Below, in pieces: positions 33,608 to 43,575 of a stretch of 64,000 bases of DNA (position 1 is its first letter; every line of letters starts with the position of its first letter). A program made the position numbers and the translations under genes. The notes below the pieces were generated by a model. The model saw only the letters and a program-made list of their open reading frames with translations, was not told the origin of the DNA and made no database searches. The stretch lies in the NCBI RefSeq assembly GCF_000191885.1, contig NZ_AEWI01000005.1, positions 1 to 64,000 of the forward strand, given 5' to 3'. The stretch is from Anaerophaga thermohalophila DSM 12881. Its GTDB lineage: Bacteria; Bacteroidota; Bacteroidia; Bacteroidales; Marinilabiliaceae.

Positions 33608-33722
33608 AATTAGTGTCTGTCTAAAAAGTCGGGGAAGTATCTTTGTAACAATGTGTCTGTTCAGAAAGTACCGGTTGCAGGGCATAACGAAGCAAGTGGT
33701 ATTTTATGGAGCGACACGAATA
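33608..33722 (+). repeat. Family D element, short form
   Basis: 115 bp with AATTAGTGTCTGTCTAAAAAG and GCGACACGAATAA ends. It lacks the internal GCCGCCCAAAAT hairpin of the 171-bp copy. It lies between cdsA and psd; an upstream ATG at 33653 in the psd frame lies inside it and is unlikely to be the true start. Confidence 0.78.
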
Positions 33723-33733
33723 AGGTTATCATT

Positions 33734-34393
33734 ATGAGAGTGCACAAAGAAGGTTATGCAACGTTGTTTGTAGTTTTTTTAATTTTGGCCGGGATCAATA
33801 CCGGAATCTATTTCTTAGTGGCTTCGCCTGCCCCGGTTCTGGAATGGACCGTTATTATTTCTATCATATTATTCTTTTATTTTGCAGCCTTTTTTCGCAG
33901 CCCGAAACGGAGCGTCTTTCTGCAGGACAAAGCCATAGTTGCACCGGCTGACGGGAAAATTGTTGTGGTTGAAGAAACTGAAGAGAATGAATTTCTTAAA
34001 GAGAAGTGTGTTCAGGTTTCGGTTTTTATGTCCATATTCAATGTCCATATCAACTGGTTTCCTGTTTCAGGGATTGTCCGTTATGTAAAACATCAGCCGG
34101 GCAGGTTTCAGGCGGCTTATCTGCCTAAGGCATCGTCTGAAAATGAACGTACAACGGTTGCTTTGGAAACTCCCGGCGGCTCACAGGTTGTTGTGCGACA
34201 GATTGCCGGCGCACTTGCCCGAAGGATAGTTTGTTACGCAGAAGAGGGTGAAAAGGTGAGACAGGGACGACAACTCGGATTTATTAAGTTTGGCTCAAGA
34301 GTAGATGTTTTTCTGCCGGTTGGAAGTCGCATCGATGTGCAGCCGGGGCAAAAGGTAAAAGGACGGCAAACCATTATCGGGTGGCTCGAATAG
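33734..34393 (+). CDS. psd: Phosphatidylserine decarboxylase proenzyme
   Basis: 219 aa from ATG 33734. It converts phosphatidylserine to phosphatidylethanolamine. Two N-terminal membrane helices (about 8-28 and 33-50) precede the decarboxylase domain with VAPADGKIVVVEE and FMSIFNVHINWFPVSG. The self-cleavage site producing the pyruvoyl group is the FGS in GFIKFGSRVDVFLP, the short PSD-A type. pssA is often next in related genomes but is not found here; the following gene is convergent. Confidence 0.92.
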   Translation: MRVHKEGYATLFVVFLILAGINTGIYFLVASPAPVLEWTVIISIILFFYFAAFFRSPKRSVFLQDKAIVAPADGKIVVVEETEENEFLKEKCVQVSVFMSIFNVHINWFPVSGIVRYVKHQPGRFQAAYLPKASSENERTTVALETPGGSQVVVRQIAGALARRIVCYAEEGEKVRQGRQLGFIKFGSRVDVFLPVGSRIDVQPGQKVKGRQTIIGWLE

Positions 34394-34411: not shown

Positions 34412-37400
34412 TTACTGAAGTCTGATGCCCATAAATATTACATCATCAACCTGTTCCAGGTCTCCTTTCCAACTGTAGAAATGTTCTTTAACAGCATTAT
34501 ATTGCTGATCCATAGGTAAGTGATGGATTTCTTCCAGCATGGTTTTTATGCCCACTTTCATGAATTTTTTCTCTTTGGGTCCGCCAAACTGATCGGAGAA
34601 ACCATCTGAGAAAAGATAAACGGAGTCGCCGGGCTTGCATTGATATTCAATGTTTACAAAAGGCGTATCATCATCGACAAGTGAATCCCCTATACTTCGA
34701 CGATTTCCTTTATAGATGGTAAGCGCATTGTTCAGATATAAATAAACTGGTCTTTTTGCAGAAGCGACCCTTACTTTATTGGAGTCTGTTTCAATTTCAA
34801 TAACGGAAATATCCATCCCGTCGCGTGTGTTTTCTTTATTCTTGCTGTTCTGAAGTAATATTTTTATTTCCAGATCAAGGCGCTGAAGAAGATCGGCCGG
34901 AGAATTGACATCCTGACGTTTTACAATATCATTGAGCAAAGTACTGCCTATCATCGACATAAAAGCTCCCGGAACTCCGTGACCGGTACAATCGGCACAA
35001 CTGATAATAAAGTGGTTTTTGGTTTTGTAGAACCAATAAAAATCACCGCTGACAATGTCACGGGGTGCAAAGAAAACAAAGGACTCGGGGTAATATGATT
35101 TTAAGACATTAAGAGGGGGTAAGATTGATGATTGAATGGTTTTGGCATAGTTTATACTGTCGGTAATGTCGCGGTTTTTCCTTTCAATTTCAGCCTTTTG
35201 CTCTCTGAGCTGGATCGTTTGAAGATCAACGGCTTTTTGTAACTGTTCTTTCTGGCGTTTTAATTTTCTTTCCCGGGAGACTATTATCAGATATACCGCA
35301 TAGATGATAATAGCGGTAAGTGCCAGGTAGAACCATGGTTTTTTCCAAAAAGGAGCAGCGATGGAAAACGCAATCGATACAGGGTCAGAGGGAACGCCAT
35401 CGGCATTAAAAGCGCGAACGCTGAGCGTATAGCTACCGCTTGGCAAAAAATCATATTCTCTGAAATTGGTAGTGCCCAGATTTATCCATTCATGGGTTTC
35501 TTCGTCTCCACTTCTTTGTAGTTGGTATTGATAAGTTACTTCTTTTGAGTTTTTAAAACTTATGCCGATGAAATTAAATCGGAACTGATAGCTTTTACGA
35601 TAAGGGTAAGGCAGTTCTATTTTCTCTCCCGGGCGGTAGCTTTCTCCGGATATCGATATGTTGGTGAAATTCAGAGAAGGCGGTATGGGGTTTTTATCAT
35701 GCTTTTCGGGGAAGTAATGGACTGCTCCGCGGGCAGAAGCAAGCCAGAGCGTTTTGTCGGTATCTTTTTTTATTTGATAAAAATCCGATCCCATGTCCTG
35801 TTCGTGGTCGTATATTTCAATTTCGCCGGTTTTGGTGTCAATCATGCTCAGCCCGGGATGATGAGCAATCCAGAGCCGGTCGCGGTTGTCGACAGAAATG
35901 CTGTAACAAAAATTTTTAGCCAGGCCGTTGTTGATATTGAAAGTCTGAATGGAATCTTGTTTGTATTTTAATACTCCCCGACCGTGAGTGGCCAGCCATA
36001 TACTGTTGTCTGATGTTTGAACCATATCATACACATCAACAGGCGCATCGGATATTTTGTGCATTTCAATACGGTTGTTTCTTAATTTGCAGATTCCGCT
36101 GTTTCTGGGGCCTATCCATACGTTACCTTCGTTGTCGGTATATACGAAATTTATATTATTGTGGGGAAGTCCCCGTTCGGTAGTTAGATGTTCCGTTTTT
36201 CCCGTCTTTGTATTGATGGAAAAAAATCCACCATAGGTTGCAAGATAAATCATGTCGCCTATTCCGGTAATGTCCCTGATCATTAAATCAGGAAGATTAC
36301 CGGAATAGTGTAATCGGGAAAATCTCATCTCTCCCGGTTTACGGTAATAAAGACCTTTGCTGCCGCTGGCAGCATAGAGCGTGCCGTCGGGCGCACGGTA
36401 CAATCCGGTAATTTCATCGTTGGGAATACCAAAAGAGGCGTCATAATATTCAAAGTCTATGAAACAGAAAGGATCTGTTTTGATCAGCCCTTTCTCCAGT
36501 CCCAGCCATAAGGTGCTGTCATGACGGCAGGTTGACAGGACTTTGTTTTGTTCAAAGCCAATGGTCTCCAGATTGTAAAACACGTGATATTCATTTGTCA
36601 GGAGAGAGGTGCCTCCGCCATAGGTGGCAAACCAGTAATTTGATTCGCGGTCACACAATATATCCCTGACATAGTTGTTGTTGAGTCCGTTTTCGGTAGA
36701 GAAGTTATAGGAGTTGGTGTACGCTTGTTTGTCAGGATCGAAAAAAAGTTTGATCACCCCGTTGCCCCACGTGGCCAAAAGGAGATTCCCGTTTGGCTCC
36801 TCTTCAATGTCTTTTATGTTTTCCCACTGGATATCGAATTTCAGGCAGAGACTGTTGTCTACAAGGTGACGACTTTCGTTTTGTGTGTCGGAATATAAAA
36901 AGAAGCCATTGTCTTCTGTTCCGATCCAGTAATCTCCAATAATTCCTTTTCTGGGAATGATGGAAGTAATATTGGTGGATGGAATTTGTGAAATCCGGGC
37001 TGCTGAAACAATGGTATCATTTTCCGAAAAATTAAGACGAAAAAGGCCTTCGGATGTGCCTGCCAAAGCTGTACCATTATTAATTCCTATGGAATAGAAC
37101 AGTTTATGAGCAAGTTTATCGTGTTTTAAAAGTTCATAATCAAGCGTACTTTTGTCGATTTTTATTAACCCTTCATTTTGACAGGCAATCAGGATGGTTT
37201 CATTATCAAGGTCGCTGATGCAGGTTACCGGGCTTTTTGTCTCGGGAATCCTGACCGGCCAAAACCGGTTGTTTTTATATATCGTGACGTCGCCGTTATT
37301 GTGTCCAATCCAAAGGTTTTCATCAGAAGAGATATGCAGCGACGAGATGAAATCGTCGGCAAGCGAGTCGGTGTGATTAAAATTTTTGAACTCGAGTCCG

Positions 37401-37603
37401 TTATACCTTACCAGTCCTTCTCCGGTTCCCATCCAGATATAACCGTTTTTGTCCTGTTCCAGCGCATAGACGAAATTTTGTGGCAATCCCACGTTGGAAT
37501 CGAAGATTTTAAATCTGAAAGATTGCCCCGATACATTACGTGTCAATAAGAGCAAAAATGCAATTGACATGAAGAATGCCAATTGTCGGGCCCGAAACTC
37601 CAT
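34412..37603 (-). CDS. Two-component-regulator-propeller sensor with SpoIIE (PP2C) phosphatase domain
   Basis: 1063 aa. A signal peptide (cleaved near VSGQS) precedes about a dozen propeller repeats of the form D(N/K)-x-G-x-(I/V)-W-(I/M)-G (about 30-640), e.g. DKNGYIWMGTGEGLVRYN. A Y_Y_Y domain follows (about 660-750), then one membrane helix (about 755-777) and a cytoplasmic coiled coil (780-830). The SpoIIE serine/threonine phosphatase has acidic metal ligands DIVSGDFYWF, ADCTGHGVPGAF and LFSDGFSDQFGG. It probably senses an extracellular or periplasmic cue and dephosphorylates a cytoplasmic partner such as an anti-anti-sigma factor, none of which is in the window. Last gene of a five-gene unit. 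Confidence 0.88.
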   Translation of the reverse strand: MEFRARQLAFFMSIAFLLLLTRNVSGQSFRFKIFDSNVGLPQNFVYALEQDKNGYIWMGTGEGLVRYNGLEFKNFNHTDSLADDFISSLHISSDENLWIGHNNGDVTIYKNNRFWPVRIPETKSPVTCISDLDNETILIACQNEGLIKIDKSTLDYELLKHDKLAHKLFYSIGINNGTALAGTSEGLFRLNFSENDTIVSAARISQIPSTNITSIIPRKGIIGDYWIGTEDNGFFLYSDTQNESRHLVDNSLCLKFDIQWENIKDIEEEPNGNLLLATWGNGVIKLFFDPDKQAYTNSYNFSTENGLNNNYVRDILCDRESNYWFATYGGGTSLLTNEYHVFYNLETIGFEQNKVLSTCRHDSTLWLGLEKGLIKTDPFCFIDFEYYDASFGIPNDEITGLYRAPDGTLYAASGSKGLYYRKPGEMRFSRLHYSGNLPDLMIRDITGIGDMIYLATYGGFFSINTKTGKTEHLTTERGLPHNNINFVYTDNEGNVWIGPRNSGICKLRNNRIEMHKISDAPVDVYDMVQTSDNSIWLATHGRGVLKYKQDSIQTFNINNGLAKNFCYSISVDNRDRLWIAHHPGLSMIDTKTGEIEIYDHEQDMGSDFYQIKKDTDKTLWLASARGAVHYFPEKHDKNPIPPSLNFTNISISGESYRPGEKIELPYPYRKSYQFRFNFIGISFKNSKEVTYQYQLQRSGDEETHEWINLGTTNFREYDFLPSGSYTLSVRAFNADGVPSDPVSIAFSIAAPFWKKPWFYLALTAIIIYAVYLIIVSRERKLKRQKEQLQKAVDLQTIQLREQKAEIERKNRDITDSINYAKTIQSSILPPLNVLKSYYPESFVFFAPRDIVSGDFYWFYKTKNHFIISCADCTGHGVPGAFMSMIGSTLLNDIVKRQDVNSPADLLQRLDLEIKILLQNSKNKENTRDGMDISVIEIETDSNKVRVASAKRPVYLYLNNALTIYKGNRRSIGDSLVDDDTPFVNIEYQCKPGDSVYLFSDGFSDQFGGPKEKKFMKVGIKTMLEEIHHLPMDQQYNAVKEHFYSWKGDLEQVDDVIFMGIRLQ

Positions 37604-37607
37604 AATG

Positions 37608-38585
37608 CTATTGTTTTGGTTTTATGCCTATGCTGTATTTATACTCAGGAATGCCACCAATAGGAATACTGTAAAACGGCATTAGCTCTCCGTATTGATT
37701 TTCCAGGAAGATGACAACATTATTGTCTTTCACCATTGGTGATTGTCGTTTTATCATCTGGATGTCCAACGAGCTGTTGTGTTCATCTTCAGTTATGGCA
37801 TGGCGGCTTTCCACCCATTCATCATCAGCCGAAGCTGCCAGTATTTCACCGTTTTTCGCCGGCGATATGATCCTGATAGATCCGTCAGAGTCCCAATCGA
37901 AATTGCTTTGCTTAATGGCAATAACATCCGATGTCATATAAGGATAGATATGTGAAACTTCTTTGACATCGTTGTGCAGTCTGAATTTGTATTTGAAGTA
38001 AAAAGCAAATGCTCCTTCAACGGGACGGTTTTCATCGCTTTCGGTCGTCAGGAAAAGGGTGTAGAGATTCCCGTCATCTCCGTCAATTCCTTCAATTATC
38101 ATTTTAAAAATGTACCCTCCGTATTCCGGCAGTAACTCTCCCTCTGTCGGATTAAAAGGGCCGAATGTGTACCAGCTTTTATTGTACCTTGGGTTGCCTG
38201 CAAATGTTTTTGAAGCCAGGAGGTTCCCGCTTTTATAGTTTCCTTGGAGGTTGGAACGACGCGCGTCCTCTTCGGAGCAGGTACCATCGCCGCCGTAAAC
38301 AGAAAAACGGGTGGTTGTGTCCCATTCACCTTTCTGCTCATCGATATCACTTCCGGTATCGGGATCAGATACTCTTATAAAAATAGGGCGATCATAATTC
38401 TCCGGTATCGAAAAAAATATGATTTGACAAAAATCGTCATCACCCCAGGCAGTATCTCCGTCACCACCAAAAGTGACCAGATAGGGGATGTTTTCATCAA
38501 TTGCAGGAACGGGTTGGGCAGATAGCGAGGACAGGTTAAAAAGGAAACTCAGAATGATGAAATATAACGTTGTTGTTGGTTTCAT
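37608..38585 (-). CDS. Secreted protein of unknown function in the T9SS operon
   Basis: 325 aa. A signal peptide (MKPTTTLYFIILSFLFNLSS, cleaved after SAQ) is followed by a beta-rich, acidic mature protein. FGGDGDTAWGDDDFCQIIFFSIPE and RVSDPDTGSDIDEQKGEWDT look like metal-binding or jelly-roll loops. It has only two cysteines after the signal peptide and no T9SS C-terminal domain. I do not recognise a family. It is 8 nt after the PD40/PKD gene and 4 nt before the SpoIIE gene, so it probably belongs to the same envelope complex. Confidence 0.6.
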   Translation of the reverse strand: MKPTTTLYFIILSFLFNLSSLSAQPVPAIDENIPYLVTFGGDGDTAWGDDDFCQIIFFSIPENYDRPIFIRVSDPDTGSDIDEQKGEWDTTTRFSVYGGDGTCSEEDARRSNLQGNYKSGNLLASKTFAGNPRYNKSWYTFGPFNPTEGELLPEYGGYIFKMIIEGIDGDDGNLYTLFLTTESDENRPVEGAFAFYFKYKFRLHNDVKEVSHIYPYMTSDVIAIKQSNFDWDSDGSIRIISPAKNGEILAASADDEWVESRHAITEDEHNSSLDIQMIKRQSPMVKDNNVVIFLENQYGELMPFYSIPIGGIPEYKYSIGIKPKQ

Positions 38586-38593
38586 AATGCTCT

Positions 38594-40009
38594 TTATTGA
38601 GGATCAGTCACTTCAATTTCTCTGAAAAAGCACACTTCCCGGTTATTCTTTAAACGGGTTGAACAGATGATCCTGTATCTGCCGGCTTTATGATATGTGT
38701 AATCAATTTTTTTGCCAATTCTTGTTTCTCCGTTGCCAAAATCCCAATAAAAAACCATATCTTCCGGTGGATTCTTATATCCACGAAGGGTTGCCTTCAG
38801 CTCCAACGTGAAGTTGGTGTTTATAGTATCGGGTGTTTCAAACCATATTTGTTTTTTTCTTTCAATTTTCAGGTTATACGAAGCAACTGAAAAAAGTTGT
38901 TCATTCAACAACGTATCTATTACATTAAGATTAATTTGATATTGTCCGGGCTGTTCGAAACAATGATCTACTTCGAGACCTGTTGCCTCATGTCCGTCTC
39001 CAAAGTCCCATCGATAAATGTAAGGCAGCGTGTCTGACTTAAAAGGTCCGTTTTCGAAAAAAGTGAAGCAAAAATTGTCTTCTTCTACTTTTTGAGGATC
39101 GGAACATGCAATTTGAGGGAATGAGAATTTGTATATGTCATCGTCGCCGTCTCTGTCCGAAGCAAAAAAGCCATGCTTTTCATCGGGTCCGATGTAACAG
39201 GAAAAGTCATTAAAAATAGTGTTGACAGGCTCGGGAAGCGGTACGGGTTTGCTGCCGGGAATATTCATATTGACGTAGTAAATGTCGAGGTTTCCTGCTC
39301 CGTTGTGCCCGTCGGAAGAAAAATAGAGTTTTCCTGACGGGTGAATAAAGGGGAACAATTCTTTTCCCGGCGTATTTATGTCAGGGCCGGTATTTTCGGG
39401 TGTACTCCAGCCGTCCGGGGTTCTATGTGAGACGTAAATATCGGTGTCGCCATATCCGTCTTCCATATCGGACACAAAAAATAACCGGTTTCCGTCGGCC
39501 GAAAGAGATGGCTGACCTATGGAAGCACTTGGAGGAACATCTATATTCAGCTTCTGATACCTGTTCCATGCTTTTTCTCTTTTTTGAGCAGTGTAGAGCG
39601 TTAACCGGTTGGGCCGGTTCTGACCGGATCGTCCCTGATATCGTTCCGAACGATTGTGAGTGGCTATAAGCATGGCGCCATTGGCCGAAAAAGTCAGAGG
39701 ACCGGCATTGTAACGTGGCTGGTCAGGCGGTGAAAAGAGTTCCGCCTTACCTGTTGTGCCGTCAGCATTAAGCGGGGTTCTGAAAATTCTGAAAAGAAGC
39801 TCATTATTTTGGTCAAGATAGGTAACAAACAGGTTGGTTCTGCGGTTTGATATAAAATAAAGCATGGAATCCTGTACCACCGGAGCAAACTCACTGGTTC
39901 CGGGATTGCTTATTTCTAATTTCCTGACGTCGATTCCCTGTCCGGGGGCTTCTATACCGGATAAGATGAGTAAAAACAGGACTAAGTATGGTGTTTTTTG
40001 CCAGGCCAT
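38594..40009 (-). CDS. PD40 propeller and tandem PKD-domain secreted protein
   Basis: 471 aa. A signal peptide (cleaved near APGQG) precedes PD40/WD40-like propeller repeats (about 40-290), such as QPSLSADGNRLFFVSDMEDG and LFPFIHPSGKLYFSSDGHNG. Two PKD-like domains follow: YRWDFGDGHEATGLEV (about 330) and YWDFGNGETRIGKKID (about 425). This resembles the periplasmic part of PorE/SprE-type T9SS proteins but lacks an OmpA peptidoglycan-binding domain. It lies between the PorP-like gene and the unknown secreted protein. Confidence 0.8.
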   Translation of the reverse strand: MAWQKTPYLVLFLLILSGIEAPGQGIDVRKLEISNPGTSEFAPVVQDSMLYFISNRRTNLFVTYLDQNNELLFRIFRTPLNADGTTGKAELFSPPDQPRYNAGPLTFSANGAMLIATHNRSERYQGRSGQNRPNRLTLYTAQKREKAWNRYQKLNIDVPPSASIGQPSLSADGNRLFFVSDMEDGYGDTDIYVSHRTPDGWSTPENTGPDINTPGKELFPFIHPSGKLYFSSDGHNGAGNLDIYYVNMNIPGSKPVPLPEPVNTIFNDFSCYIGPDEKHGFFASDRDGDDDIYKFSFPQIACSDPQKVEEDNFCFTFFENGPFKSDTLPYIYRWDFGDGHEATGLEVDHCFEQPGQYQINLNVIDTLLNEQLFSVASYNLKIERKKQIWFETPDTINTNFTLELKATLRGYKNPPEDMVFYWDFGNGETRIGKKIDYTYHKAGRYRIICSTRLKNNREVCFFREIEVTDPQ

Positions 40010-40021
40010 TGTGGTCAGTTT

Positions 40022-40927
40022 TTAAAAGAATTTGGGACTTGGGGTATTAATTGTGTACCCGAAATCGTACTGAATAGAAATTTCGTGGCTACCATGGTTG
40101 AAATTTCCAATATCACCCAGAGAATAGTCATACGAGTAGGCTACCCGAAGCTGCGGAATGATTTGCCAGCCAACATGAAAAACAATCTCTTCCCGGGTAC
40201 GGTAGGTGGCGCCGCCCCATATCATACTGTTATAGATTACAGAACCTGACAGGTCTGCCCAGGAGCCCGTATCCTGGTTCACTTTTAACAGGAACGATGG
40301 CTGGAAACTTAAATCCTGTGAAACATCAAAGAGATAACCGCCTGTGAAGAGAATATCCATTTTCTTCGGGTCGAATTCAGGGCCGTCTAATTTTTCGAAA
40401 TCGTGGGTGAAAAACTCGGGAATTGATATGCCCCCAAAGAAACGGTGATTGTAAATACTCCATCCGAACCCTGCCTGGGGGCCCGACGATGCCTCTTTAA
40501 TGCCGAATATTTCATCTTCCGCTTCTTCCAGTGTTACCTCATTCCAGTTGATGGAATAGCTGGAAAAACCTCCCGATACACTAAAAGCCATCCAGGTATA
40601 AGGGTTGACGTGCACGCGGTAAGTATATGAAAGCGATGCACCGAGATTGTTTTTGATGGCAAAAGTTTCGTTGAAGACCTGCAAACCGACGGCCATGTGA
40701 GGATTCTTTAATGGGGTGTGACCTGTAAAATACTGTGCATGTGGCGATTGTGGCATTCCTGCCCATTGCTTTCTAAAAGAGCCGAAGAGCGAAAGGACTT
40801 CACGCGATCCGGCAAAGGAAGTGTTAATGGCAAATCTGTTGTGCATGTATTGGCTAAGCGTCATTGCTTTCTGGCCGGATGCCGGAAGCATTACAAGCAG
40901 GAATATGATGATGGCAGTAATTTTCAT
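40022..40927 (-). CDS. Type IX secretion membrane protein, PorP/SprF family
   Basis: 301 aa. The signal peptide ends at GQKAMT, followed by the family hallmark SQYMHNRFAINTSFAGSRE (about 24-42), then a beta-barrel with GGFSSYSINW and DILFTGGYLFDVS and an aromatic C-terminus. PorP/SprF proteins help secrete or anchor type-B T9SS cargo at the cell surface, as SprF does for SprB in Flavobacterium johnsoniae. It lies 15 nt after the type-B cargo gene, which is the expected cargo-partner pairing. Confidence 0.93.
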   Translation of the reverse strand: MKITAIIIFLLVMLPASGQKAMTLSQYMHNRFAINTSFAGSREVLSLFGSFRKQWAGMPQSPHAQYFTGHTPLKNPHMAVGLQVFNETFAIKNNLGASLSYTYRVHVNPYTWMAFSVSGGFSSYSINWNEVTLEEAEDEIFGIKEASSGPQAGFGWSIYNHRFFGGISIPEFFTHDFEKLDGPEFDPKKMDILFTGGYLFDVSQDLSFQPSFLLKVNQDTGSWADLSGSVIYNSMIWGGATYRTREEIVFHVGWQIIPQLRVAYSYDYSLGDIGNFNHGSHEISIQYDFGYTINTPSPKFF

Positions 40928-40942
40928 ATCAGACAGACACGG

Positions 40943-42667
40943 TTAATTTCTTTTGATGATTAAATAATCCTGTACAGTTTTAATGCCTTCTCCTTTGAAC
41001 ACAAAATAGTAAACGCCACTGTCAAGCGGTTTGCCATTGTCGTCGGTGCCGCCCCAGGGTTCATCCTCGGAGTAATCTTTTTCATGATAGACCACAGCAC
41101 CGTTTTGGTCGAAAATGATCAATTCATTGTTGTCAATATGACGGGCTCCTTTTATCTTGAAATAGTCATTTTTCCCGTTGCCATTTGGTGATATTCCGGT
41201 ATAGTAGGTCAGTTTCTGAAGATGAAGAACGATCTGGTCAGATTCGGCAGGACAGACGCCGTTGGTTACCAACCACTCAATAGTAACGGGAGCGTTGTTA
41301 ATATTGGAAATAAGCGTGATTGTGTCGGACGGGTTGACAATGTTTCCACTCCCGGATACAATATACCATTCTCCTTTCCAGTCACCCGACAAGGTGTTGC
41401 TGAGAGGCGTTCTGGCGTGAAGGGTTGTTGAGTTCTTGTGATAGAGGGTATCCGTTTCACCGTTTGTAATTTCGGCTAAAGGTGGTTCGTCGAATCGTAC
41501 AATGCGGCTCTCGCTGGCAGAGCAATCTTTGTTTGTTTCCGTCCAGGTAACAATGTGTTCGCCCCAATCCAAAGCTTCAAAAACAGAGTCATTCGGATTG
41601 GTACTTCCAGAGAATGTTCCGGTTTGGGAGCTCCAATAACCATATTGGGCTTTTGCCGATAGCTGATGTGTGAGCACGATGTTTTTTACACCACAAACGG
41701 CTGTGTCATTCCCTGCATCGGGTGAGGGAAGAAGATCAATGACCGTGGCTTCATCAGAGATATCTTCCTGTAATGCCAGACAGCCGTTGTTGTCGCGGAC
41801 CCATAGAAATGAAAAGATTGTTTCACCATTGACGGTTACGGTTTCAGTGGTTGTAGTATTGGCTGATGTACCGTTGAGGACTTTCGAATCGCCGTCGGAA
41901 ATGGCATATTCCCAGGGGCCGTCTTCACCCTCAAACATAAGTTCGAGTGTAGCCGTCTGCTCTTCCGTACCGCATACTTCCGATGAGGTGGTTAACGATG
42001 CCGAGGGAGAGCCGCGAAGCAGGACATTAACCTCGTCTGTATTTGAGCAGGCTCCGTTTTCCTGGTGAAATACCAGCGGATAATTTCCTTTTTCAGGGGC
42101 TTCAAAGGTAGTATTGGGATCGCTCGTGTCCCGGAAAACCCCTTCGGCAGGATTTTGCCATGAGTAGTTGTTTGAGATGGGATCGGGGACAGCACTAAGG
42201 ACCGCCTGCAATCCGCAGGAATCGATATCGGCACCGGCGGAAGGATTTGGCATAGCCCAGTTGGTGAAGGATATCTCTTCACCGGAAAGTTGTTGCCCGT
42301 TATCTTTAGTCCAGTTTGTTATTGTATTGTCAAAGACTTCTAATATTTCAAAGGTACCTGTGGTGTCAGTTTTTCCTTCTTCTACCGGAAAGTTAAGGGT
42401 ATAGTTTTTTATGTATACACCGTCAACCAAATTTTCTTCGAATATTTGGTTGCTTTCGAATACTTCATTGTTATTTGGAAACTTCAGTGAATATGCAAAC
42501 GGATCATCACCGTAAAAGCGGATTTTCAGTTCAACAGTAATCTGGCCGGTATTGCAAACCTCAATATCCCCGGTTACAAATTCAGCATTCGGAGTTTGGG
42601 CCAGTGCACTGCTAAAGTAGCCCCAGAGCAGGATTGTTAAAATATATACCGGTTTAAGCTTCTTCAT
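40943..42667 (-). CDS. T9SS type-B cargo protein with gliding-motility-associated C-terminal domain
   Basis: 574 aa. A signal peptide (cleaved after ALAQ) is followed by a beta-rich ectodomain with immunoglobulin/SprB-repeat-like stretches and regular cysteine pairs. The C-terminal domain (about 485-574) has YYTGISPNGNGKNDYFKIKG, LIIFDQNGAVVYHE, YSEDEPWGGTDDNGKPLDSG and YYFVFKG, the CHU_C type-B signal. It is expected at the cell surface, where it may act as an adhesin. It is the first gene of the five-gene unit. Confidence 0.93.
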   Translation of the reverse strand: MKKLKPVYILTILLWGYFSSALAQTPNAEFVTGDIEVCNTGQITVELKIRFYGDDPFAYSLKFPNNNEVFESNQIFEENLVDGVYIKNYTLNFPVEEGKTDTTGTFEILEVFDNTITNWTKDNGQQLSGEEISFTNWAMPNPSAGADIDSCGLQAVLSAVPDPISNNYSWQNPAEGVFRDTSDPNTTFEAPEKGNYPLVFHQENGACSNTDEVNVLLRGSPSASLTTSSEVCGTEEQTATLELMFEGEDGPWEYAISDGDSKVLNGTSANTTTTETVTVNGETIFSFLWVRDNNGCLALQEDISDEATVIDLLPSPDAGNDTAVCGVKNIVLTHQLSAKAQYGYWSSQTGTFSGSTNPNDSVFEALDWGEHIVTWTETNKDCSASESRIVRFDEPPLAEITNGETDTLYHKNSTTLHARTPLSNTLSGDWKGEWYIVSGSGNIVNPSDTITLISNINNAPVTIEWLVTNGVCPAESDQIVLHLQKLTYYTGISPNGNGKNDYFKIKGARHIDNNELIIFDQNGAVVYHEKDYSEDEPWGGTDDNGKPLDSGVYYFVFKGEGIKTVQDYLIIKRN

Positions 42668-42732
42668 TGATGTACAATCTTTCCTTGCCGATGATGTTAT
42701 AAACGGGAACTAAAATAAATATGGCCCTGATA

Positions 42733-42740
42733 CAAATCTA
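42733..42740 (-). promoter_or_regulatory. -7 element for the T9SS-SpoIIE operon
   Basis: TAGATTTG on the minus strand, 66 nt before the first gene. No matching -33 TTTG is visible, which would fit an activated promoter. Confidence 0.4.
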
Positions 42741-42920
42741 ATAAAAAACTCCGTGAATTCAGTCGGATATTGTTCACGCTGTTATCAGAGTTGAATTTAG
42801 TAAATAAAAATGACGAGTTCATTAAAAAGTACATGAAAGTAGTTGATTTTTACACGATTCATTGTTTTTTTCTGATGTATTTCGGGCAAAAAGTCTTTTT
42901 AGGCGCCTTTATTACCCCTC

Positions 42921-43194: not shown

Positions 43195-43379
43195 TTTACT
43201 ACACCATTTAAAACCTCTAATCATCTGAGAAACCAAAAACAGGGAACAGATTCTTCGTCGTTACCTCCTCAGAATGACATTAGACAGTCTGTCATTCTGA
43301 GCGGAGCGAAGAATCTAAGATCAATTAAAGCATGATAAGTTGCATTATTCCAATAATTTAGACTAATTTTATACAGATG
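43195..43379 (+). repeat. Family B long-form repeat with lost left end
   Basis: From ACACCATTTAAAACCTCTAA through the GATTCTTCGTCG / CGAAGAATC palindrome to TTTTATACAGATGAAA. The left GATGAAACGAGC end is missing. 43055-43194 holds no recognisable gene. Confidence 0.7.
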
Positions 43380-43575
43380 AAACGAGCATGACAAAGATTG
43401 TCACAAAAGAACATGTATAAAATTCAATCATGCGAGTTCCATCAGACCAATAACTTAGACTAATTTTATACTGATGAAACGAGCATGACAAGGTTTATCA
43501 CAAAAGTTGATGTATAGAATCAATCATGCGAGTTCCATCAGGCCAATGACTTAGACTTATTTTATACGGATGAAA
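43376..43575 (+). repeat. Two tandem family B short repeats
   Basis: Units at 43376-43472 and 43473-43575 follow the long form directly, giving three units in a row that share GATGAAA junctions. The first is close to consensus; the second differs more in its left half. A pyrimidine-rich simple repeat (CTTCTGCCTTCTGCC) lies at 43643-43672. Confidence 0.85.

Follow-up and report, generated by a model that had tools for sequence, protein, structure and literature searches.

Here, we identify in Anaerophaga thermohalophila DSM 12881 a conserved five-gene operon in which a known surface unit of the type IX secretion system (T9SS) is followed, on the same strand, by a gene for a secreted protein of no named family and a gene for a membrane receptor with a SiaA-like phosphatase output. 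The operon lies in a 64,000-nucleotide stretch of DNA (the window: positions 1 to 64,000 of contig NZ_AEWI01000005.1, here C207, of assembly GCF_000191885.1, which holds 4.32 Mb in 211 contigs and is 98.65% complete with 5.39% contamination). Its gene set and order recur across families, and the same genome carries a lone SiaB-SiaC pair whose relatives co-occur with the fourth gene. We propose, with moderate confidence, that the operon encodes a surface-to-cytoplasm relay, in which an assembly of cargo, PorP and PorE-like proteins would be linked through the gene 4 product to the sensor of gene 5, whose phosphatase would act on SiaC. The new part is the pair attached to the T9SS unit, namely gene 4 and the gene 5 propeller receptor with its SiaA-type phosphatase: no description of this operon, or of T9SS, SpoIIE and PorP in combination, was found in the literature searched, which lies outside preprints and most subscription journals. 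Within that literature the relay, if true, would be the first built-in phosphatase pathway from the T9SS surface to the cytoplasm and would give the gene 4 family its first role.

The T9SS unit and its conserved gene order

The operon consists of five minus-strand open reading frames (ORFs) separated, in the ORF listing, by 15, 12, 8 and 4 nt, as an earlier note made from the DNA letters alone had described. The gene set in that note stands, and Pfam and NCBIfam profiles match its CHU_C, PorP/SprF, PD40/PKD, propeller and SpoIIE/PP2C calls; its span of 34412-42740 begins too far upstream, since gene 1 starts at 42667 and 42668-42740 is upstream DNA. Genes 1 to 3 are a known T9SS unit. Gene 1 (40943-42667, 574 aa) encodes a type B cargo protein with a C-terminal CHU_C domain (1.6e-17; TIGR04131 type B sorting domain, 39.9 bits against a cut-off of 35), and directly downstream, as is characteristic of a type B cargo and its cognate PorP, gene 2 (40022-40927, 301 aa) encodes a PorP/SprF outer-membrane barrel, the cognate shuttle or anchor (PorP_SprF 2e-60; TIGR03519, 213.6 bits against a cut-off of 90.55). 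Gene 3 (38594-40009, 471 aa) encodes a PD40 protein (4.4e-17) with two PKD stretches (PKD_4 1.2e-19) that matches the PorE model NF052230 at 2.3e-44 over residues 27-301, far under the whole-protein cut-off. Because the PD40 propeller is present and a profile scan finds no OmpA peptidoglycan-binding domain at the C-terminus, we call this protein PorE-like rather than PorE; the OmpA domain is present in gene 3 of the relatives L061, L144 and L176.

The earlier note had regarded a PD40 partner for cargo and PorP as new, and here it was mistaken. In the accessible text of two reports (PMC9143113; PMC12618676), PorE-like genes adjoin PorP-like genes in F. johnsoniae, PorP binds both type B cargo and PorE, and PorE, PorP and PG1035 form a complex in P. 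gingivalis. Our operon shares with the P. gingivalis complex and the F. johnsoniae type B operons the grouping of cargo, PorP-like and PD40 PorE-like genes, but differs from them in that gene 3 has PKD stretches and no OmpA domain and in that genes 4 and 5 are added.

Of 198 genomes sampled within the order, 24 from 14 families carry gene 4 (its own genome counted), with 49-70% identity outside its own genome. We read the surroundings of 28 loci from the order genomes and of 80 named loci, which are the best 80 of 407 confirmed matches and are biased to close ones; leaving out the window and merging loci that share the last 150 gene 4 residues reduces these 108 loci to 97 distinct ones. Among the best 80 of 407 matches the closest named gene 4 belongs to Thermophagus xiamenensis (82%), which probably places the organism in the Marinilabiliaceae. 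Cultured species with relatives include Marinilabilia salmonicolor, Alkalitalea saponilacus, Natronoflexus pectinivorans and Carboxylicivirga linearis, all of them non-pathogenic bacteria of the environment. The full order of cargo, PorP, PD40/PKD, gene 4 and gene 5 on one strand is found in 73 of the 97 distinct loci and in at least 11 families; outside the order it recurs in a single genome of the class (L176). Gene 5 lies directly after gene 4 in 92 of the 96 loci with a downstream ORF, gene 3 lies directly before it in 82 of the 93 with an upstream ORF, and with mechanically called starts the median gaps over the 73 full loci are 0, 3, 16 and 14 nt. The clustering of the five genes is not chance. 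Conservation confined to close relatives, which the earlier note had named as grounds for giving up its reading, is not what we find, and the surface module that it suggested survives to the extent that the cargo unit and the receptor phosphatase are co-conserved as a joint module. Among the loci not counted as full are L112, where two small ORFs separate gene 3 from gene 4, L061, where a second cargo-PorP pair does so, and L040, which has split frames.

The adjacent ORF carries a SpoIIE output in 68 of the 73 full loci; the remainder comprise kinase outputs in L065 and L144, a PP2C in a separate frame in L123, and frames that end at the contig edge in L132 and L143. The output can thus be swapped behind the same gene 4, L065 and L144 carrying HisKA/HATPase instead of the phosphatase and L062 beginning a HisKA before its contig ends. 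The kinase-output gene of L065 is followed by what by eye is a receiver-like protein. Separately, 22 of the 73 full loci (including L042, L043 and L044) have a histidine-kinase-like gene immediately before the cargo gene and in the same orientation; these genes often run off the end of the stretch, with up to 956 aa read, the copy in L110 has HAMP/HisKA/HATPase, and the gene is possibly a sixth member in some families.

A receptor phosphatase and its proposed secreted partner

Gene 5 (34412-37603, 1063 aa) encodes a receptor phosphatase in which a signal-peptide-like start is followed by a propeller (residues about 27-640), a Y_Y_Y-type beta region (about 640-750), a helix at 756-791 holding the transmembrane segment, a further helix and a SiaA-type PP2C domain (about 835-1062). 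Profile matches are Reg_prop at 1.2e-31 and SpoIIE at 2.8e-17, and the model has a mean predicted local distance difference test score (pLDDT) of 84.9 and a predicted template-modelling score of 0.63. The propeller half of the propeller/Y_Y_Y sensor proposed in the earlier note is confirmed; the Y_Y_Y half falls below the Pfam cut-off (23.1 against 26.6 bits), though the model shows strands there and relatives score above it (27.2 bits in L065, 40 in L062 and 64 in L144). The sensor matches the hybrid two-component system (HTCS) sensor structures 4a2l, 3v9f and 3ott, sharing with them a periplasmic Reg_prop propeller, a Y_Y_Y-type region and a transmembrane segment. In contrast to the histidine kinase/regulator output of an HTCS, gene 5 ends in a PP2C domain, as do most loci, and it has gene 4 as a regular partner. 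A PorZ identity finds only a partial match (45.4 bits against a cut-off of 260).

The output of gene 5 resembles SiaA. Five PDB sequences match gene 5 at E 0.001 or better, and the only phosphatase among them is SiaA (6k4e; 2e-34, residues 783-1061). The SiaA model NF038263 matches residues 779-1062 only (6.5e-59), and because this match is partial, at 200.1 bits against a whole-protein cut-off of 700, we speak of a SiaA-like output rather than a SiaA orthologue. In an alignment of 40 sequences chosen from 82 full-length gene 5 proteins with a SpoIIE output, the catalytic motifs SGD (852-854), D928-G929-D931, SDG (999-1001) and DD (1053-1054) are invariant in all 40 and M930 nearly so; a regular expression for the four motifs matches 70 of the 82. 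The genome encodes five SpoIIE proteins, three of them SiaA-type, on C207 (gene 5), C190 and C210; those on C200 and C202 have no SiaA match at E 0.001, and the C200 phosphatase matches RssB/SpoIIE models. The C210 protein (L070:11252-14623) is a second propeller/SiaA-type receptor phosphatase; the genome has a single gene 4, so no relative of it lies beside this receptor, whose neighbours look by eye like enolase and citrate synthase.

Gene 4 (37608-38585, 325 aa), which the earlier note rightly left unrecognised, has a start that by eye is signal-peptide-like; searches of Pfam (up to E 1) and NCBIfam (up to E 0.1) find no match to it, and the PDB holds no sequence relative better than E 0.2. 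An AlphaFold2 model built on a 26-sequence alignment (mean pLDDT 83.2) is all-beta, with a fold that is probably two beta-sandwiches. A DxDxDG loop (D230, D232, D234, G235) is invariant in the 26 aligned sequences, a looser regular expression for it matches 93 of the 97 distinct loci, and judging by this motif it is perhaps a Ca2+ site. Structure searches with Foldseek and VIA-align return middling beta-sandwich matches to GOLD, carbohydrate-binding, DeCLIC N-terminal and collagen-binding domains (best Z 6.0; best Foldseek rows at a template-modelling score of about 0.25 or less), at which level we claim no known fold family for the protein.

Covariation of the five genes suggests how their products might be connected. 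Partial correlations of pairwise distances were computed over 67 full loci with a long gene 5 (68 in a companion analysis), and linkage and rate effects may contribute to them. They are positive for pairs with known binding elsewhere, cargo-PorP (genes 1-2, 0.53) and PorP-PorE (genes 2-3, 0.26), and gene 4 joins both gene 3 (0.53) and the gene 5 sensor (0.55); values are low for genes 3-5 (0.09), 1-3 (0.12), 1-4 (-0.01) and 1-5 (-0.02), and the signs of the larger ones hold in 500 half-samples. We infer a physical chain in which the gene 1 protein would be exported by the T9SS and kept at the surface by the gene 2 barrel, the barrel would bind the PorE-like gene 3 protein on its periplasmic face, and the secreted gene 4 product, perhaps a Ca2+-binding beta protein, would link this assembly to gene 5 at its propeller/Y_Y_Y head in the periplasm. 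When the assembly changes, through cargo arrival, cargo loss, ligand or load, gene 5 may be altered across the inner membrane and its phosphatase switched.

A precedent for such communication is PorA, a T9SS surface protein that affects the sensor kinase PorY and whose authors, in the accessible text (PMC7712824), expect other factors to mediate between the surface and the inner membrane. The relay would resemble PorA signaling to PorXY-SigP in that a surface protein of the T9SS has an effect on a sensor in the inner membrane, but PorXY-SigP consists of a two-component kinase and a sigma factor, and no PP2C or gene 4 is described in that text. Our operon supplies, in a different system, a concrete candidate for a mediator (gene 4), and SiaC2 emerges as a likely substrate in the cytoplasm.

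SiaB-SiaC as a candidate cytoplasmic partner

The known substrate class of the SiaA phosphatase is SiaC, and SiaABC(D) is known in Pseudomonas (PMC7647112; PMC8457831, in their accessible text). The genome of A. thermohalophila has two distinct SiaC sets. On C190, a PP2C gene, SiaB, SiaC and an ABC protein stand together; on C163, SiaB and SiaC stand without a phosphatase beside them, next to a convergent ABC protein, and C183 repeats this stretch. The threonine switch of Pseudomonas aeruginosa (SiaA-SiaB-SiaC(-SiaD)) is matched in its PP2C output, its SiaB-like DUF6272 protein, its SiaC and the phosphosite Thr kept in SiaC, whereas here the sensor is a propeller/Y_Y_Y receptor, the phosphatase lies apart from SiaB-SiaC (neither adjoins gene 5 in the window operon, both own pairs being on other contigs) and the assembly, 98.65% complete, has no GGDEF domain. 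The finding extends the SiaA/SiaC switch, studied in Pseudomonas, to a member of the Bacteroidota whose genome encodes no diguanylate cyclase. C163 and C183 share about 16 kb of almost identical DNA, which reflects either assembly duplication or strain mixture.

Comparison among genomes points to the C163 pair. Our SiaC neighbourhoods comprise 22 loci, 20 of them hand-chosen from 14 genomes with gene 4 and two from A. thermohalophila itself, and L190 and L192 hold SiaC without SiaB. A PP2C gene accompanies SiaB-SiaC in 5 of 5 pairs of the C190 type and in 0 of 15 SiaB2-SiaC2 pairs in the stretch read. SiaC occurs in 24 of 24 genomes with gene 4 against 63 of 174 others (p 3e-10), and close relatives of SiaC2, defined by identity alone at 64% or more, in 24 of 24 against 46 of 174 (p 7e-13), with kinship ignored in both tests. 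Two loci place the genes side by side: in L131, SiaC (Pfam 1e-29) immediately precedes gene 4 in the same orientation, overlapping it by 8 nt under a first-ATG rule or about 90 nt away if the start is the signal-peptide Met, with two more SiaC genes about 4.5 kb after gene 5, and in L063 a convergent SiaC follows gene 5. Among the 12 of 24 gene 4 genomes in which SiaA-type phosphatases were counted, G006 has only two, gene 5 and one beside the other SiaBC set.

We consider a SiaC phosphoprotein the likelier substrate of gene 5 than a STAS protein. Gene 5 would remove phosphate from the Thr of a SiaC-type protein, most likely the SiaC of the C163 pair, which lacks its own phosphatase; dephosphorylation would oppose the SiaB-like kinase and change SiaC's partner. 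The earlier note had reported no anti-sigma or anti-anti-sigma gene nearby and advised a search for STAS partners; the local absence holds and the genome does have three STAS matches (on C163, C183 and C210, those on C163 and C183 at distinct places), but with a SiaA-like output, SiaB-SiaC elsewhere in the genome and SiaC beside the relatives in L131 and L063, the class it looked for appears to be the wrong one. We set aside a STAS or diguanylate-cyclase partner on the same output and the missing GGDEF. Both own SiaB-SiaC pairs adjoin a gene for a 1024-aa ABC ATPase plus ABC-2 membrane protein (L068:7802-10876, L066:9450-12524), one of the two with a TerB domain, and 12 of the 15 SiaB2-SiaC2 pairs have an ABC protein convergent next door; this protein is a candidate SiaC effector in genomes without a diguanylate cyclase.

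In its fullest form, an outside-in relay across both membranes in which the chain of T9SS protein, barrel and PorE-like protein is completed by gene 4 as the missing periplasmic link and the receptor phosphatase feeds a SiaB-SiaC hub shared by several receptors, the proposal is tentative.

Competing readings, distant relatives and flanks

Several observations speak against the relay. On the cytoplasmic side, G063 has a PP2C gene (C93:11713-12534) about 5 kb away from SiaB2-SiaC2 and a little beyond the stretch read, and 46 genomes hold a SiaC2 relative without gene 4. G006 has four SiaC proteins, and in each of G029 and G143 two SiaC stand against four SiaA-type phosphatases; because A. thermohalophila itself has three such phosphatases (C207, C190, C210) for two distinct SiaC, the C210 protein could serve the lone SiaB-SiaC pair. 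Several receptors likely feed few SiaC hubs. The known type of SiaC effector, SiaD, is absent, as the genome has no GGDEF. On the periplasmic side, the correlation between gene 2 and the gene 5 sensor (0.47) is nearly as high as those along the chain and that between genes 2 and 4 is negative (-0.24), neither of which a simple chain predicts. Gene 4 and gene 5 stand without PorP/PD40 neighbours in eight loci (L047, L055, L082, L085, L097, L101, L131 and L137; L060, L063 and L142 begin at the edge of a contig and so count neither way), so the receptor needs no adjacent genes 2 and 3. Conversely, L100 and L106 have genes 1 to 4 but lack gene 5 (L104 begins at the edge of its contig), and L138 has genes 3 and 4 without it. 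Since gene 4 can accompany genes 1 to 3 without the receptor, or the receptor without PorP/PD40 genes, it may be the link between them.

The same eight loci favor a possible alternative to which we give a clear minority of our belief, in which gene 4 is a periplasmic ligand-binding protein or co-receptor and gene 5 senses a soluble molecule (a glycan or ion) in the manner of an HTCS, the cargo unit being co-expressed and not sensed. The HTCS structures matched by the gene 5 sensor and the fold of gene 4, which weakly resembles beta-sandwich domains such as carbohydrate-binding ones, fit this alternative, but the loci with genes 1 to 4 and no gene 5, the covariation of genes 3 and 4 and an order kept over 11 families do not. 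Rather doubtful, in our judgment, is a feedback role in which gene 5 would monitor unexported cargo or empty PorP and adjust T9SS or adhesin expression, as PorA is proposed to act on PorXY-SigP; this overlaps with our relay and differs from it in stimulus and purpose. The PorA-PorY precedent (PMC7712824) and the correlation of genes 2 and 5 would suit it, as would the T9SS type A cargo genes near gene 4 and gene 5 in two loci that lack PorP/PD40 genes: in L101 the cargo gene is the next one upstream, and in L131 two ORFs lie between. However, nothing supports a regulon containing T9SS genes, and PorA-PorY is a kinase system without these parts. By eye, the type A-tailed cargo of L131 (5104-7371) has an N-terminal motif and a Gly-rich stretch common to long type B cargos of other families, both of which the window cargo lacks.

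That the phosphatase works like those of RsbU/SpoIIE switches, on an anti-anti-sigma protein of the STAS class, is improbable: the genome's three STAS matches would supply a partner, but the output of gene 5 is SiaA-like, SiaC and not STAS stands beside relatives, and the C200 phosphatase would be the more natural STAS partner. Least probable is that slow rearrangement has kept five functionally unconnected neighbours together, for although most loci come from one order and the named set is the closest 80 of 407 matches, the five genes stay together over 11 families, with short gaps and into another order of the class, and the psd/cdsA flank does not, lying within the stretch of only 9 of 108 loci.

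More distant relatives of gene 4 occur in 11 of 395 sampled genomes of the phylum, the own genome included. In nine of the 11, outside the class, gene 4 forms part of large open frames (993-1654 aa) that elsewhere match the PKD portion of the gene 3 model, with 15 PKD stretches by Pfam in L166. Near the fusion, L166, L167 and L173 have a response-regulator-SpoIIE gene as well as a kinase or cyclase bearing HAMP, L168 has a kinase and L169 has a cyclase; no signaling gene of this kind was seen next to it in L171 or L174, with L170 being short and L172 and L175 left aside. The gene 4 domain therefore meets PKD domains and SpoIIE/kinase signaling twice. The run in L167 also holds a FecR/LysM/Glucodextran_B protein.

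At its 3' end the operon meets psd (33653-34393, plus strand), a convergent neighbour outside the unit, 18 nt from gene 5. The five non-operon window genes scanned include no SusC/D. In the upstream region (42668-42860, minus strand), read directly, TAGATTTG fits what we take to be the Bacteroidota -7 motif, TAnnTTTG, with no clear -33 TTG seen by eye; a promoter/terminator scan was set aside, its consensus being that of sigma-70 and unsuited to Bacteroidota. Further upstream of the cargo gene, intergenic DNA at 43327-43575 carries three copies of a direct repeat that are in register over 56 nt, spaced 97 and 96 nt apart and 71-93% identical to the reference copy.

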